A program made the translations under genes and the position numbers. Shown one piece after another: positions 14,149 through 19,400 of a stretch of DNA of 57,000 bases. Source of the stretch: Chthoniobacteraceae bacterium (GTDB taxonomy: Bacteria; Verrucomicrobiota; Verrucomicrobiia; Chthoniobacterales; Chthoniobacteraceae); the NCBI GenBank assembly GCA_947476045.1, contig CANJNZ010000024.1, positions 1 to 57,000 of the forward strand, read 5' to 3'. The stretch's first letter is position 1; every line of letters starts with the position of its first letter. The notes under the pieces are model-generated. The model made no database searches. It was not told where the DNA came from and saw only the letters and a program-made list of their open reading frames with translations.

Positions 14149-15702
14149 TTAGTCGAACTCCCTCCTCTCCCCGCGCTGAAATCGCGCGGGGCGGTTTTCA
14201 TAATCATTTTCTCCGGGCTGTGTGGGACGGCTGATATTTTCCGGGCGCCCGCTGACGGCACTTGCGGCGATTGCGGCATCATCGAAGGGGATCGTGGAGT
14301 CCGCAAACTCCTGGTAGGATTCGTGGCCCTTGCCTGCGAGGAGGATAATGTCGCGCGGTTGCGCCATGGCGATGGCTTTGAAAATGGCCTCTCTGCGATC
14401 GATGATGATCTCGGGCACTAGACGACGAAAGCCGGGTTTGATGTCCTCGATGATTGCGAGCGGATCTTCCTTTCGCGGATTGTCGCTCGTCACGATGACA
14501 TAATCGGCCATCGCATCCACGGCTGCGGCCATCCTTGGACGTTTTGTGACATCACGATTTCCACCGCAGCCAAACATGACAATCAGTCGCGCGGGTTCGA
14601 GTTCGCGCAATGTGCGCATGACGTTTGTGAGCGCGTCATCCGAATGCGCGTAATCCACAAAAACGCGGAAGGGTTTTTTCGCCGGAACCGACTGAAGTCG
14701 TCCGGGCACTGGCGGCGCTTGTTTCAGGGCGTTCACTGCGTCGCGCACATTCAGACCAAGTGCATGCGCTGTGGCGATGGCTGCGAGTGAGTTCAATACG
14801 TTGAACGCACCGATAAACGGCATTTTGACCAAATAACTCCTGCCAAGCGCATCGAGTTGGTAAGTCGTCCCGCTAAAATCCATACGCACACTACTCGCGC
14901 GGAACTGCGCAAGCGCGCCAACTCCGTAGGTGAAAACCTCGGTGTTCTTCCCGATGCGATCCACGAGGCGCGCACCAAATCGGTCGTCGCTGTTGATGAC
15001 AGCACGGGCTTTCTTTTTCTGCGCCGGAAGCTGATCGAAAAGCAACGCCTTCGCTTCGAAGTAGGAGTCCATCGTGCGATGGAAGTCCAAGTGATCCTGT
15101 GTGAGATTGGTGAACACCGCCACGTCGAACTCCACGCCGCGCACACGATCCTGAATCATGGCGTGCGAACTAACCTCCATCGCACAGCTCTTGCAGCCAT
15201 CGGAACGCATCATCCAAAGCAATTCCTGCAAATCAGCGCTCTCGGGTGTGGTCCGCGTTGCCGGCAGCTTTCTGTCGCCGATGACGTAGCTAACCGTGCC
15301 GATGAGACCGCAGCGGAGAAATTGTGTATCGAGGATGTGCTTGATAAGAAAAGCCGTGGTGGTTTTTCCGTTCGTTCCAGTCACACCAGCAATTTTCATC
15401 GCGTGGGATGGATTTCGGTAAAAAGCAGCCGCCGCATCCGCAAGTGCATGCCGCGCATTCTTCACCTGCAAATGCGTTGCGCGTGTGGCGAGGCCGGATT
15501 TTTCGCTCACGACTGCTACTGCACCACGATTAATCGCAGAGTCCACAAACTGTGAACCGTCCGTCTTTTCACCAGGCAAAGCGACAAAGAGGCTACCTTC
15601 TTTTGCCTGTCGGGAGTCGTAACAAATCGCCGTGATGTCGCGATCAAGCTCGCCGGTGATTGCGACCGGCTGGATGACTTTGGATAGCAGTTCAAGGTTC
15701 AT
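14149..15702 (-). CDS. murE: UDP-MurNAc-L-Ala-D-Glu--2,6-diaminopimelate ligase
   Basis: Adds the third stem residue; 517 aa. It has the N-terminal domain (ICYDSRQAKEGSLFVALPG), the ATP loop GVTGTNGKTTTAFLI, EVSSHAMIQDRV and the C-terminal DNPRKEDPLAII. The DNPR motif is the known signature for meso-diaminopimelate rather than lysine, so this bacterium is predicted to have a DAP-type peptidoglycan. The C-terminus carries about 30 extra polar residues (SRPTQPGENDYENRP...) beyond the usual end. The ATG overlaps the ftsI stop (TGATG). Confidence 0.95.
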   Translation of the reverse strand: MNLELLSKVIQPVAITGELDRDITAICYDSRQAKEGSLFVALPGEKTDGSQFVDSAINRGAVAVVSEKSGLATRATHLQVKNARHALADAAAAFYRNPSHAMKIAGVTGTNGKTTTAFLIKHILDTQFLRCGLIGTVSYVIGDRKLPATRTTPESADLQELLWMMRSDGCKSCAMEVSSHAMIQDRVRGVEFDVAVFTNLTQDHLDFHRTMDSYFEAKALLFDQLPAQKKKARAVINSDDRFGARLVDRIGKNTEVFTYGVGALAQFRASSVRMDFSGTTYQLDALGRSYLVKMPFIGAFNVLNSLAAIATAHALGLNVRDAVNALKQAPPVPGRLQSVPAKKPFRVFVDYAHSDDALTNVMRTLRELEPARLIVMFGCGGNRDVTKRPRMAAAVDAMADYVIVTSDNPRKEDPLAIIEDIKPGFRRLVPEIIIDRREAIFKAIAMAQPRDIILLAGKGHESYQEFADSTIPFDDAAIAASAVSGRPENISRPTQPGENDYENRPARFQRGERREFD

Positions 15703-17531
15703 CAGCGTCCGTTTTTTGCGAGAGCTTTTGCCTCGTCCTTCTCCTGCTGGAGTAGGATGGGGTCGGGTTGAATACCAAGATACGCGAGTGATTTTTCGGC
15801 GATCAGCTTGAACACTGGCGCTGCCACCATGCCGCCGACGTCTTCGTGGTTCGGCACCTGCGCCTCGTCAAAAACTACAGCGATGCAAATTGCCGGATCA
15901 TCGGCGGGGACGTAGCCGACAAATGAAGTTATGTGGTCATCTTTCGAATAATGACCGTCTTCAATCTTTTGCGATGTTCCTGTTTTCCCGGCAACGCGAA
16001 AACCCGGGATATGTGCTCGCACCGCTGTTCCTTTCTTTCCGGTCACACGAATGAGCGCCTCGCGAACTTTCCATGCAGTGTCTTCGGTAATGACACGACG
16101 GACTTCCTGCGGCTGGTAATCGACGAGCATGGCACCGCTTTCATCGCGGATATCCTTGAGAATTTGCGGCATCATCAAATGTCCGCCGTTGGCAATCGCG
16201 CTTGTAGCAACCACTACTTGAAGCGGGGTGGCTGCAACTTCGTGACCCATGGCAACACGGCTGATGGAAAGATTCGACCAAAGATGACGCGGGTGCAGCA
16301 TGCCGCGCGCTTCTCCTGGAAGTGCGATTCCTGTGGACTGGCCAAATCCAAAATTGCGCATCCAATTGTAAAATCGCTCTTCTCCCAACTGGACTGCGAT
16401 CTTGGCTGCGCCGATGTTCGACGACTTCTCGATAATCTGACCGACAGTCAGTTCGCCATAAGGATGATGATCGTGTAGTTTGTGTGCGGTCCAGTAGCCG
16501 TTTTCGCAGAATATGCTCGTGTCGGGAGATACCAGATGGTAATTAATGCCGCCAGCGCATGTGACAGCCTTGAAGGTGGAGCCGGGTTCATAAATGCCCG
16601 ACACTACATGGTTAAACCGCTGCTCGGGCCTGGCTTTTCCGGGCTCGTTTGGATCAAAAGTGGGGCGGTTCGAAAGTGCGAGGATGGCTCCTGTTTTTGG
16701 ATCCATCATCACCACGCTGGCTTTAATCGGTTTCAGCCTTTTGCAGGCAGCTTCGAGTTCGGTCTCTACGATTTGCTGGAGGTTTAAATCAATCGTGAGT
16801 CGCACATCCGAACCGTTACGGGGCGCACGCTCATTGCCGCGCGAGCTTACGATTTCGCGGCCTCGTCCATCTTTTACAAAGGAACGGGTCCCGTCCTTCC
16901 CGGCGAGCCAGTCGTCCATCGAGCGCTCGATTCCTTCGATGCCTTTGTATCGTCCAAGTCTGCGATCTTTTTCGTTATCTTCGAAGCCGTAGAATCCAAC
17001 GACGTGACTGGCGATCTGGCCTGCAGGATAAATGCGCTCGAAATTTTGCTCAAAGCGGATGCCCCGGAGATTGACTTTTTCCTTCTTCTGCAACGCCTCA
17101 ATGGCCTCGATGATGCGCTCGTATGTTTCCTCGGTGATTTTCTTTTTGAGAACGATGTATCTGCCTCCTGGAACGATGCGCTTCACGATATCCGCTTCGC
17201 TCATCTGAAGCGGACCGGTGAGGAGTGCGGCAACCTTTGGTCGCAGATCGATTTGCTCGGTTTTTTTGCCGTCCCTCTTGTCGAAAACGAGCAGTGTTGC
17301 ATCCGCGATGACGTTTTTCAGCGGCTCATTACGCGCGAGCATCGTCCCATGCGCATCCTGGATAGCGCCTCGCCGCGCCGGAATGATTTCGCTTCCTTTG
17401 TAATTGTCAAACGCCTTGATGACAAACTCCTCGTGCCTGTCCACTGCCAGATAAACCAGCCGCGCGGAGAGTGCCGTGAATACAGCCGCAAGGCCATAGC
17501 AGGCAATACAAGCGCGCGACGTGAGACTCAT
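15702..17531 (-). CDS. ftsI: Septal class B penicillin-binding protein FtsI (PBP3)
   Basis: Transpeptidase that crosslinks septal peptidoglycan with FtsW; 609 aa from MSLTSRACIACYG. One N-terminal membrane helix is followed by a PBP dimer domain (ARRGAIQDAHGTMLA ... ERIYPAGQIASHVVGFYG) and the transpeptidase domain with the three active-site motifs GSTFK, SSN (in IEKSSNIG) and KTGT (in VAGKTGTSQK). No PASTA domain is seen. The frame opens upstream at 17564, but the ATG at 17531 lies one base after the ftsL TGA. The gene order ftsL-ftsI-murE supports FtsI over other class B PBPs. Confidence 0.95.
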   Translation of the reverse strand: MSLTSRACIACYGLAAVFTALSARLVYLAVDRHEEFVIKAFDNYKGSEIIPARRGAIQDAHGTMLARNEPLKNVIADATLLVFDKRDGKKTEQIDLRPKVAALLTGPLQMSEADIVKRIVPGGRYIVLKKKITEETYERIIEAIEALQKKEKVNLRGIRFEQNFERIYPAGQIASHVVGFYGFEDNEKDRRLGRYKGIEGIERSMDDWLAGKDGTRSFVKDGRGREIVSSRGNERAPRNGSDVRLTIDLNLQQIVETELEAACKRLKPIKASVVMMDPKTGAILALSNRPTFDPNEPGKARPEQRFNHVVSGIYEPGSTFKAVTCAGGINYHLVSPDTSIFCENGYWTAHKLHDHHPYGELTVGQIIEKSSNIGAAKIAVQLGEERFYNWMRNFGFGQSTGIALPGEARGMLHPRHLWSNLSISRVAMGHEVAATPLQVVVATSAIANGGHLMMPQILKDIRDESGAMLVDYQPQEVRRVITEDTAWKVREALIRVTGKKGTAVRAHIPGFRVAGKTGTSQKIEDGHYSKDDHITSFVGYVPADDPAICIAVVFDEAQVPNHEDVGGMVAAPVFKLIAEKSLAYLGIQPDPILLQQEKDEAKALAKNGR

Positions 17532-17532
17532 C

Positions 17533-17880
17533 TCAACGCTCCTCCTTTGCTGCGATGGCCACACTGGAGCGCGGCTGGCTGACGTTCACTACACATTTTT
17601 CGTCAATTTTCACGAGATTGACGAAGCCTTTGCCAACCGCCTTCTGCAGGGCAGGAACGGAGGTAAGCTGATCTTTTTTGGTCTGAAGCGCCTCGTTTTT
17701 ATTGGAAAGTTCGGCGAGTTCTTTTTCGAGTCGTTTAATACGGTCGCCTCCAACAACAACCTGATGCTGCACCATGAGTGTCTTGATGCAAAACCCCGCG
17801 ATGCTCACGACCACAATCACGACCATGAGTATCGCGATGACTGGGACTGCTTGTGCATAGCGGCGGCTATTTTCTGACAT
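17533..17880 (-). CDS. ftsL: FtsL-like divisome protein (DivIC/FtsL family)
   Basis: A 115-aa bitopic protein: short polar N-terminus, one membrane helix at about 12-33 (VPVIAILMVVIVVVSIAGF), then a coiled-coil stretch at about 46-75 (IKRLEKELAELSNKNEALQTKK) and a short periplasmic tail. Sequence similarity to FtsL is weak, as usual for this family; the call rests on topology, size and position between rsmH and ftsI. The ATG at 17880 lies within the rsmH end, giving a 14-nt overlap; a longer upstream frame to 18051 only reads through rsmH. FtsB is the structural alternative. Confidence 0.85.
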   Translation of the reverse strand: MSENSRRYAQAVPVIAILMVVIVVVSIAGFCIKTLMVQHQVVVGGDRIKRLEKELAELSNKNEALQTKKDQLTSVPALQKAVGKGFVNLVKIDEKCVVNVSQPRSSVAIAAKEER

Positions 17881-18874
17881 GGGAAAGACGCTCGGCGACG
17901 CGGAGCTTGGCCGAGCGGGATCGCGGGTTGGTTTTTTGCTCCTCCTCGGTCGCGATGACCGGATGAGGTGTGGTAAGACGAAAAATGTAGTCCGGGTTGT
18001 GGCGGGGCGCCGGCCACTCGGGGCGGTCAAGCCATTCCGTTGCGTGGTCACGGAAGAAATTCTTCACTATGCGATCCTCACCGCTGTGAAATGAAATCAC
18101 TGCGAGACGGCCCCCCGGAGCCAGCAGGCGGGAGAATGACTCCAGCGCTGATGCGAGGACTTCGAGTTCGCTATTCACGGCGATCCGGAGCGCCTGAAAG
18201 CAACGCGTCGCTGGATGAATGCGGCTCTTTTTGGGCAGCACGCCTGCGATGCAATCCGCTAGCTGAAGCGTGCTGGTGAACGTTTTCGTAGCGCGGTCCC
18301 TCGTGATTCGCATGGCCACACGACGCGCAGATGGCTCGTCGCCAAAATCACGGAAAATGCGCGTAAGTTCCTCTTCGCTCGCCGTGTTTACGAGGTCGGC
18401 GGCGCTCACGGGTGTCGTTGGCGACATGCGCATATCGAGCGGCCCGTCGGCTTGCAGCGAAAAGCCGCGCTCTGGCGTATCGAGTTGGTGGCTGCTGACT
18501 CCCAAGTCCAGCAGCGCACCGTCTATCTGTGTGACGCCGAGTTTTTCCAACTCGGCCTCCACGTTTTGAAAATTAGCCTGGACCGGGCGGAACCGCCCAA
18601 GGAAACCGCCCAGCCGCAGGCTCGCGAAATTTGAAAATGCCTCCGGATCTTGGTCGAAGGCGAAAACTGTTGCTCCGTTGTCGAGCAGTGCCGTGGTGTG
18701 TCCGCCGCCGCCGAGCGTTCCATCCACAATCACTTTGCCGGGCGCGGGTGCTAAAAATTCGAGCACTTCGCGCATGAGCACGGGCACGTGGTAGCCACGC
18801 GTGTTGATTTCTGCGGGCATGATATAGTCCTCCGGTTCGATGACGGTTCCGAATGTGTTCGTGAGTCCGATCAT
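17867..18874 (-). CDS. rsmH: 16S rRNA C1402 N4-methyltransferase RsmH (MraW)
   Basis: SAM-dependent methyltransferase acting on C1402 of 16S rRNA; 335 aa. The family N-terminus YHVPVLMREVLEFL, the SAM loop VDGTLGGGGHTTALL, DGALLDLGVSSHQLD, RGFSLQADGPLDMRM and the C-terminal FQALRIAVNSELEVL plus AVISFHSGEDRIVKNFF are all present. The ATG at 18874 overlaps the mraZ TGA (TGATG). An internal ATG at 18820 (MPAEINTRGYHVPVL) is a possible start closer to the usual family length. Confidence 0.95.
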   Translation of the reverse strand: MIGLTNTFGTVIEPEDYIMPAEINTRGYHVPVLMREVLEFLAPAPGKVIVDGTLGGGGHTTALLDNGATVFAFDQDPEAFSNFASLRLGGFLGRFRPVQANFQNVEAELEKLGVTQIDGALLDLGVSSHQLDTPERGFSLQADGPLDMRMSPTTPVSAADLVNTASEEELTRIFRDFGDEPSARRVAMRITRDRATKTFTSTLQLADCIAGVLPKKSRIHPATRCFQALRIAVNSELEVLASALESFSRLLAPGGRLAVISFHSGEDRIVKNFFRDHATEWLDRPEWPAPRHNPDYIFRLTTPHPVIATEEEQKTNPRSRSAKLRVAERLSHVRK

Positions 18875-19323
18875 CAGTCGTAGTCAGCTAAAAGGTTGCG
18901 TCCACGGGCTTGCATCCCGTTGGTGTCGGCGGCGAATGCGTCCTCCGCCCAGATTTCAAATCCATCGATAGTTCCCACGAGCAAAGCTTTGGCGCCCGCC
19001 TTGAGTCCCACTTTTTCCGCCCAATCTTTTGGCAACGTAAGGCGACCTGCGGAGTCAATCTTGGTTTGATCCGTCGTGCTCGCCCATTCGCGACGGGCGG
19101 CCGTGCGATCAGGACCCTGAAGTTTGTTCGCCCACTCCCTGAAGAGCTCGACCTCGGAGCGAGGCAGCACAACGAGGTGGTCTTCCTTCAGTCGGATGTA
19201 GAGTTCTGCGCGTTCCGCAAACCGCCAAGCTGAAGGCACGGTCACACGCCATTGCGCGTCCACCGCATTGCGGTAATCGCGCATGAAAACTGGCGTTTGG
19301 TTCGTGGGTGTATTTTCAGGCAT
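18874..19323 (-). CDS. mraZ: Transcriptional regulator MraZ
   Basis: DNA-binding autoregulator of the dcw cluster; 149 aa. Two SpoVT/AbrB-like half-domains are seen, each with the family D-X3-R motif: DAQWRVTVP near residues 22-30 and DSAGRLTLP near 90-98. MraZ forms a ring-shaped oligomer that binds direct repeats of about one helical turn upstream of its own gene; such a repeat set is present at 19351-19390. It is the first gene of the cluster, and its stop overlaps rsmH. Confidence 0.93.
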   Translation of the reverse strand: MPENTPTNQTPVFMRDYRNAVDAQWRVTVPSAWRFAERAELYIRLKEDHLVVLPRSEVELFREWANKLQGPDRTAARREWASTTDQTKIDSAGRLTLPKDWAEKVGLKAGAKALLVGTIDGFEIWAEDAFAADTNGMQARGRNLLADYD

Positions 19324-19350
19324 GGCACATAGCTGGAATGGCGAACTCCA

Positions 19351-19390
19351 ACTAAGGCCGACTAAGTGCCACTAAGTCTGACTATTCGTC
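19351..19390 (-). promoter_or_regulatory. Candidate MraZ operator: 10-bp direct repeats
   Basis: On the plus strand the sequence reads actaaggccg / actaagtgcc / actaagtctg / actattcgtc, i.e. three exact ACTAAG starts plus a degenerate fourth in strict 10-bp steps at 19351, 19361, 19371 and 19381. In mraZ orientation this is CTTAGT repeated, 28-67 bp upstream of the mraZ ATG. Characterised MraZ operators (for example TGGGN boxes with 5-bp spacers in E. coli) have the same 10-bp period with a different core. No convincing -10/-35 pair was recognised beside it. Confidence 0.6.
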
Positions 19391-19400
19391 AATCACGAAT
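19384..19400. promoter_or_regulatory. Short perfect inverted repeat upstream of the MraZ repeats
   Basis: ATTCGT-CAATC-ACGAAT: 6-bp arms with a 5-bp spacer, touching the last 10-bp repeat. There is no U-tract, so it is more likely a protein-binding site than a terminator for the upstream ABC gene. The binding factor is unknown. The rest of the 19401-19561 intergenic is AT-rich and holds no other recognised feature. Confidence 0.35.

Follow-up and report, generated by a model that had tools for sequence, protein, structure and literature searches.

In E. coli K-12 (NC_000913.3), the MraZ boxes are direct repeats with a 10-bp step located just upstream of mraZ (AGTGGGAAATTGTGGGGCAAAGTGGG); they read CAGTGGG, TTGTGGG and AAGTGGG, with GTGGG kept in all three. 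According to the excerpted part of PMC7761207, the boxes of E. coli and B. cenocepacia sit downstream of the −10 element, and a GTG core is described there as conserved in B. subtilis, E. coli and mycoplasmas. The MraZ boxes of Mollicutes are given, in excerpts of PMC5282649 and PMC8475190, as (AAAGTGKN3)3, a 10-bp unit in three copies. The literature matches listed, drawn from a collection that lacks most subscription journals, included no study of MraZ boxes in Verrucomicrobiota and no publication for the recent MraZ PDB entries.

The locus described here lies in a window of 57,000 nucleotides from a Chthoniobacteraceae bacterium, in which 10-bp-step direct repeats likewise stand directly before mraZ. 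The window array shares AGT with two of the three E. coli boxes and has GTG in one of its four boxes, whereas GTGGG is present in all three of E. coli. It starts one base past the presumed −35, in contrast to the location downstream of −10 stated for E. coli and B. cenocepacia in the excerpt. Compared with the Mollicutes motif as excerpted, the phylum consensus AAAGTGG is nearly the same word as AAAGTGK, while the window clade carries TT for AA before AGT and has mostly lost the following G. The number of boxes, four, is the one named in the title of an M. genitalium entry ('4 box promoter'). As the first dcw gene, mraZ is followed by rsmH, a candidate ftsL (without a Pfam match), an ftsI-like gene and murE (Table 1).

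Table 1. Coordinates of the mraZ promoter array and the adjoining dcw genes in the window.
Feature	Position	Strand	Remarks
murE	14149..15702	-	NF001126, 567.6 bits (cut-off 373)
ftsI-like penicillin-binding protein	15702..17564	-	PF00905, 256.9 bits
candidate ftsL	17533..18051	-	by position; weak NF053549 match, 27.1 bits, below the cut-off of 55
rsmH (mraW)	17867..18874	-	TIGR00006, 303.5 bits (cut-off 154.3)
mraZ	18874..19323	-	divergent MraZ, 149 aa; Pfam PF02381, 40.3 bits (cut-off 23)
codons for Q24-W25	19249..19254	-	replace K and (mostly) N of the DxKxR hairpin
box 4	19347..19356	-	CTTAGTTGGA
box 3	19357..19366	-	CTTAGTCGGC
box 2	19367..19376	-	CTTAGTGGCA; the sole box in the window with the classical GTGG
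box 1	19377..19386	-	AATAGTCAGA; relative L007 has AAGTGG at the same place
inverted repeat ATTCGT-N5-ACGAAT	19384..19400		6-bp arms 19384-19389 and 19395-19400, over the −35
TTGAC	19388..19392	-	presumed −35 of the mraZ promoter; identical in seven clade members

The forward strand bears exact ACTAAG at 19351, 19361 and 19371, with a step of exactly 10 bp, and a fourth copy at 19381 that reads ACTATT and matches in four of six bases; the four 10-bp repeats reported in the initial annotation are therefore real. As mraZ is on the minus strand, the array reads CTTAGT and spans the stretch from 63 to 24 bp before the ATG (19323). In this direction TTGAC (19392-19388) is followed by one base and then by the four 10-bp boxes (19386-19347). 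ACTAAGN4ACTAAG with at most one mismatch matched twice in the window, both times exactly, against 0.02 matches expected, and none of 1000 dinucleotide shuffles reached either the best three-copy or the best four-copy 10-bp block before mraZ. Scanning periods of 5-20 upstream of mraZ gave 0.77 for period 10, followed by 0.53 for 20 and 0.50 for 6. Across the 4.37-Mb genome, CTTAGTN4CTTAGT occurs at the mraZ site only, as two overlapping matches (control, 0). A chance origin of the array is ruled out by the shuffles, the window expectation and the single occurrence in the genome. We also searched the same genome for a second array, using a longer pattern with up to three mismatches: three of the five matches were the mraZ array and the other two equalled the control count of 2. 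This search for an MraZ regulon thus gave no second genome site above control level.

A 6-bp inverted repeat had also been reported as touching the array, and is present: one arm shares three bases with box 1 and two with TTGAC. Judged by eye, its arms are 5 bp long in L003 and L004 and about 4 bp in L005; none was seen in the alignment of L006-L008. Since it is not conserved in the wider clade, we dropped it as a functional part, and its placement over the −35 is probably incidental.

MraZ was matched in 39 of the 40 family genomes, in 192 of 213 order genomes and in 361 of a sample of 387 phylum genomes. We collected 161 loci, 160 with an MraZ match and 136 differing in the last 100 residues, and examined 134 of them for arrays, omitting L044, from E. 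coli, and L134, whose start is unclear. This set comprises 39 family, 66 order and 29 phylum loci; the order sample combines 60 individually retrieved regions with some returned by search, and the phylum sample, taken from the 30 best-scoring loci of the 361 matching genomes, is biased to canonical MraZ. With 200 shuffles for each locus, 10-bp arrays upstream of mraZ reached p<0.05 in 123 of the 134 loci and p<0.01 in 93, and 10 was the best of periods 6-15 in 109. The eleven loci at p≥0.05 were L005, L014, L023, L070, L071, L082, L083, L140, L145, L156 and L160; L023 was counted although its start falls on the edge of a contig, so that the sequence taken as 'upstream' is not genuine, and the start calls of L145, L156 and L160 may be wrong. 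Of 133 loci, 118 have TTGAC within an interval that reaches from 60 nt before the start of the 10-bp chain to 5 nt past it; the reversed control CAGTT falls there in 5. Among 111 non-clade loci that have TTGAC and one or more recognisable boxes (12 of them a single one), the first box begins no later than the expected −10 position in 108. These arrays thus occupy the presumed promoter itself, unlike the placement stated for E. coli and B. cenocepacia. The initial annotation had named the window repeats an MraZ operator; gene context, 10-bp geometry, close relatives and these phylum-wide arrays all point the same way. Within the window clade, the hexamer 17 bp from the −35 is GCACTT in six of seven members (19364-19369 in the window), with no good −10, and a scan for a sigma-70-type consensus promoter gave no match. 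GCACTT is far from the −10 consensus; TTAAAA-like sequences are common at this place in relatives.

Boxes of the window type (TTAGT) occur in seven of the ten genomes of the genus (G000, G025, G029-G033), in one of them in decayed form. Footprinting of the upstream regions, as proposed at the outset, showed the repeats kept in the six close relatives found, so that the window and six others have four alignable boxes, those of L005 being decayed; a contig scan seeded with peptides of the clade, its patterns being of limited reach, returned six relatives that are the other six members of this clade. An alignment of the closest three species has identical bases in 43 of 45 columns of the array, against 44 of 94 columns before the −35 region and 15 of 21 leader columns; for all seven members the counts are 22 of 45, 8 of 94 and 5 of 21. 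In L005-L008 the final spacer measures 11 bp. Although L005 has the QW hairpin described below, boxes 3 and 4 there do not resemble TTAGT, and the periodicity of its array is not significant (p=0.09). Three other loci of the genus, L030, L031 and L035, carry TTTGGG-type boxes in nearly the same phase as the window boxes. Genera g2 and g4 of the family retain K24 and their boxes have drifted too (to TTGGG, TCGGG and similar words), so box drift in the family is wider than the K24 change. The clade is a single lineage, so its box and residue changes are not countable as independent events.

The window unit, TTAGTGGCAC, can be placed in the same register as the E. coli and phylum unit, AAAGTGGGGC, in which TTAGTGG of the window aligns with the classical AAAGTGG. 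Relative L007 has AAGTGG in box 1 and TTTAGTGG in box 2. AGT words of the clade stand at phase 9 from TTGAC in 22 of 31 cases, and [AG]GTGG words of the other loci at phase 8 (181) or 9 (73), together 254 of 287. The L007 boxes and the phasing of the whole set thus favour AGT on AGT, with a 1-nt shift relative to the −35 allowed. On the same two grounds we dropped a register counted from the −35 that placed the GTG of the window on the GGG of L030.

A matrix of 375 non-clade boxes (126 loci taken, 125 above score and L012 below) has AAAGTGGGGC as its consensus, with a centre of T (96%), G (99%) and G (96%); AGT is present in 199 of these boxes, GTG in 304 and TTAGT in none. Of 28 clade boxes, by comparison, 26 contain AGT, 24 TAGT, 19 TTAGT and 11 GTG, and the most invariant base of the phylum, the G of GTG, is G in 12. 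With the GTG core mostly missing (it is found in one of four window boxes), we filed the array as a variant MraZ operator and not as a plain member of the class. The proposal of a novel core consequently holds in part. The ACTAAG/CTTAGT hexamer is, as read in this register, the left part of the known unit, offset from the classical box, and does not amount to a new core at a new site; AGT and part of the GG are retained. What did change is that T or TT replaces A or AA before AGT, and that the G after AGT is lost in 16 of the 28 clade boxes; in the aligned clade boxes conservation now centres on TAGT instead of GTGG.

The predicted product of mraZ scores above the PF02381 gathering threshold (Table 1). 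With TIGR00242 it reached 34.7 bits (E 1.5e-8) against a cut-off of 98.35, and a genome search with this profile listed no match for the window genome; only 3 of 387 phylum genomes pass this cut-off, which therefore does not fit the phylum. In G007, a second weak MraZ-like match (L043, G007:C32) lies on a contig other than that of the dcw cluster and was not found by the family MraZ profile. An AlphaFold2 model of the window protein from a 7-row alignment (pLDDT 81, pTM 0.74) predicts two AbrB-like halves, as in the MraZ fold. All 16 PDB matches of the model at E≤0.001 were MraZ chains (1n0e and 1n0f, titled UPF0040 in the fold search, are named Protein mraZ elsewhere), and they include entries whose titles give MraZ with 'its promoter' and '4 box promoter'. 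The matches to 9R4J and 9SZ7, by title cryo-EM structures of M. genitalium MraZ with DNA, had TM scores of 0.64-0.73 by query and 15-19% identity in the fold alignments; in the window protein the hairpin K24 is replaced by Q and the residue next to it by W.

The N-terminal half of MraZ contains a hairpin with the pattern DxKxR, a criterion derived from our alignment and not a published definition; by analogy with AbrB-like proteins, this hairpin would face and read the DNA. The window protein has DAQWR instead. We compared it with 128 non-clade MraZ sequences, including E. coli and omitting L134. Residue 24 is K in 125 of them, E. coli among these and all 125 from outside the genus, and the exceptions, L030, L031 and L035, belong to the same genus and have A24-L25; Q24-W25 is found in all seven clade members. 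At position 19, 109 of the 128 sequences have H and 18 have R, and the clade has N (6) or I (1); position 15 is G in 116 of 128, and R (6) or L (1) in the clade. The hairpin of L030, L031 and L035 reads DSALR, and these are the sole other examined MraZ proteins lacking the hairpin lysine.

An RsmH tree joined the two halves of the genus with support 100/99 and had the window half as one clade in just 34% of bootstrap trees. Identity between the halves is 26% for MraZ and 62% for RsmH (with L030 and L031 as the other half), compared with 24-44% and 56-67% between other pairs of groups; the value for MraZ is among the lowest but not unique. In a 67-row MraZ tree each half formed a clade (100/100) on a long stem (1.42 changes per column for one, 2.07 for the other), and the halves were apart, with the window half beside g2 and g4 (98/97). 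A single MraZ clade for the genus was not rejected by the AU test on 33 rows (p 0.287), so that a transfer of MraZ from elsewhere is not needed, though it may have occurred. The simplest history would be that K24 was lost once, at the base of the genus, which then gave a Q-W/TTAGTnG half and an A-L/TTTGGG half.

We regard the array, its setting at mraZ and its conservation as firmly established, and binding by MraZ as very likely. We favour, at a probability of about 0.85, a single reading of the locus as a variant MraZ operator with a drifted code, in which an MraZ ring would cover the promoter and repress its own cluster. An ordinary MraZ operator in decay, with control weakening and repeats drifting toward no new specificity, would account for the degraded boxes 3 and 4 of L005 and its periodicity at p=0.09, for the retention of GTG in just 11 of 28 clade boxes and for the long stem branch of the clade MraZ (1.42 changes per column). 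It sits poorly with the closest trio, where 43 of 45 array columns are identical but just 44 of 94 columns upstream, and does not predict AGT in 26 of 28 boxes with a preceding T in 24; the mraZ frame, moreover, has no internal stops in any of the ten genus members. We consider decay unlikely. That some regulator other than MraZ reads the repeats might be suspected from the absence of the published GTG core from three of the four boxes, and is made quite improbable by a position and step shared with the phylum arrays and a phase close to theirs, by the AAGTGG box kept in L007, and by an MraZ hairpin that differs, within the genus, between the two box types.

Least credible of all is that the array is a dispersed intergenic repeat of the order, ATTAGTGNNN three times and then GTT, with no relation to MraZ. 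Exact TTAGTN5TTAGTN5TTAGT does occur in 10 of 213 order genomes, with 20 matches listed against 7 for the reversed control: several sites in each of G079, G081 and G084, single ones in G153 and G175, a tandem one in G006 and four in the genus. The arrays of G079, G081, G084, G153 and G175, however, belong to other families and have another unit (ATTAGTG-like, ending in GGTT), whereas the window genome has its array at mraZ only and four genus members have one copy each, at mraZ. The dispersed element itself is seen in L167-L171, L173-L175 and L177-L181, near locus position 1500, with several copies each in three f10 genomes (G079, G081, G084) and single copies in two of f11 (G153, G175); it is phased at 10 bp like MraZ boxes, yet its unit is different. 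Separately, L162:1500-1550 in G006, a genome of the same family, holds five tandem 10-bp copies of the CACTAAGTCT/CACTAAGGCT type, a unit that resembles the window array. These precede an ORF starting MKIHTLQIPPEGKHFEG on a contig other than that of the G006 mraZ, and Pfam gave no match for 97 residues of this ORF.

For the variant MraZ operator, the geometry suggests how it might work. Its four boxes, one per helical turn, run from one base past the −35 across the expected −10, and in an MraZ ring neighbouring subunits would each meet one box, all from one face of the DNA. The ring would hide the promoter, and blocking of RNA polymerase is the likely mode of action, so that MraZ may repress its own cluster; the covered promoter suggests repression and not activation. 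In the genus of the window, the box would have changed from AAAGTGG to TTAGTnG while MraZ lost its near-universal hairpin lysine 24. A joint change of specificity in regulator and operator is a good hypothesis, drawn from one lineage, and residues 24-25, perhaps with 15 and 19, may be the cause of the box change. The simple model in which K24 reads the G is weakened by the A24-L25 species: they retain TGGG, and loss of K24 alone is therefore no explanation for loss of the G. L007 has a mixed array of one classical and three new boxes. We suggest tentatively, at somewhat short of even odds, a natural change of code in which, after loss of K24, Q24-W25 would read TTAGTnG and A24-L25 would read TTTGGG, with L007 as a living intermediate and residues 24-25 (perhaps 15 and 19) setting the specificity.

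Despite the conservation described for it, the GTG core is mostly gone in one half of this genus, where the hairpin of MraZ is changed as well. Since cryo-EM entries of MraZ on DNA exist, to judge by their titles, the residue predictions are directly checkable. AAAGTGG, the mixed array, TTAGTnG and TTTGGG would form a natural series for studying how a ring regulator and its boxes change jointly, a series of interest because every one of the four boxes must stay readable during the change.
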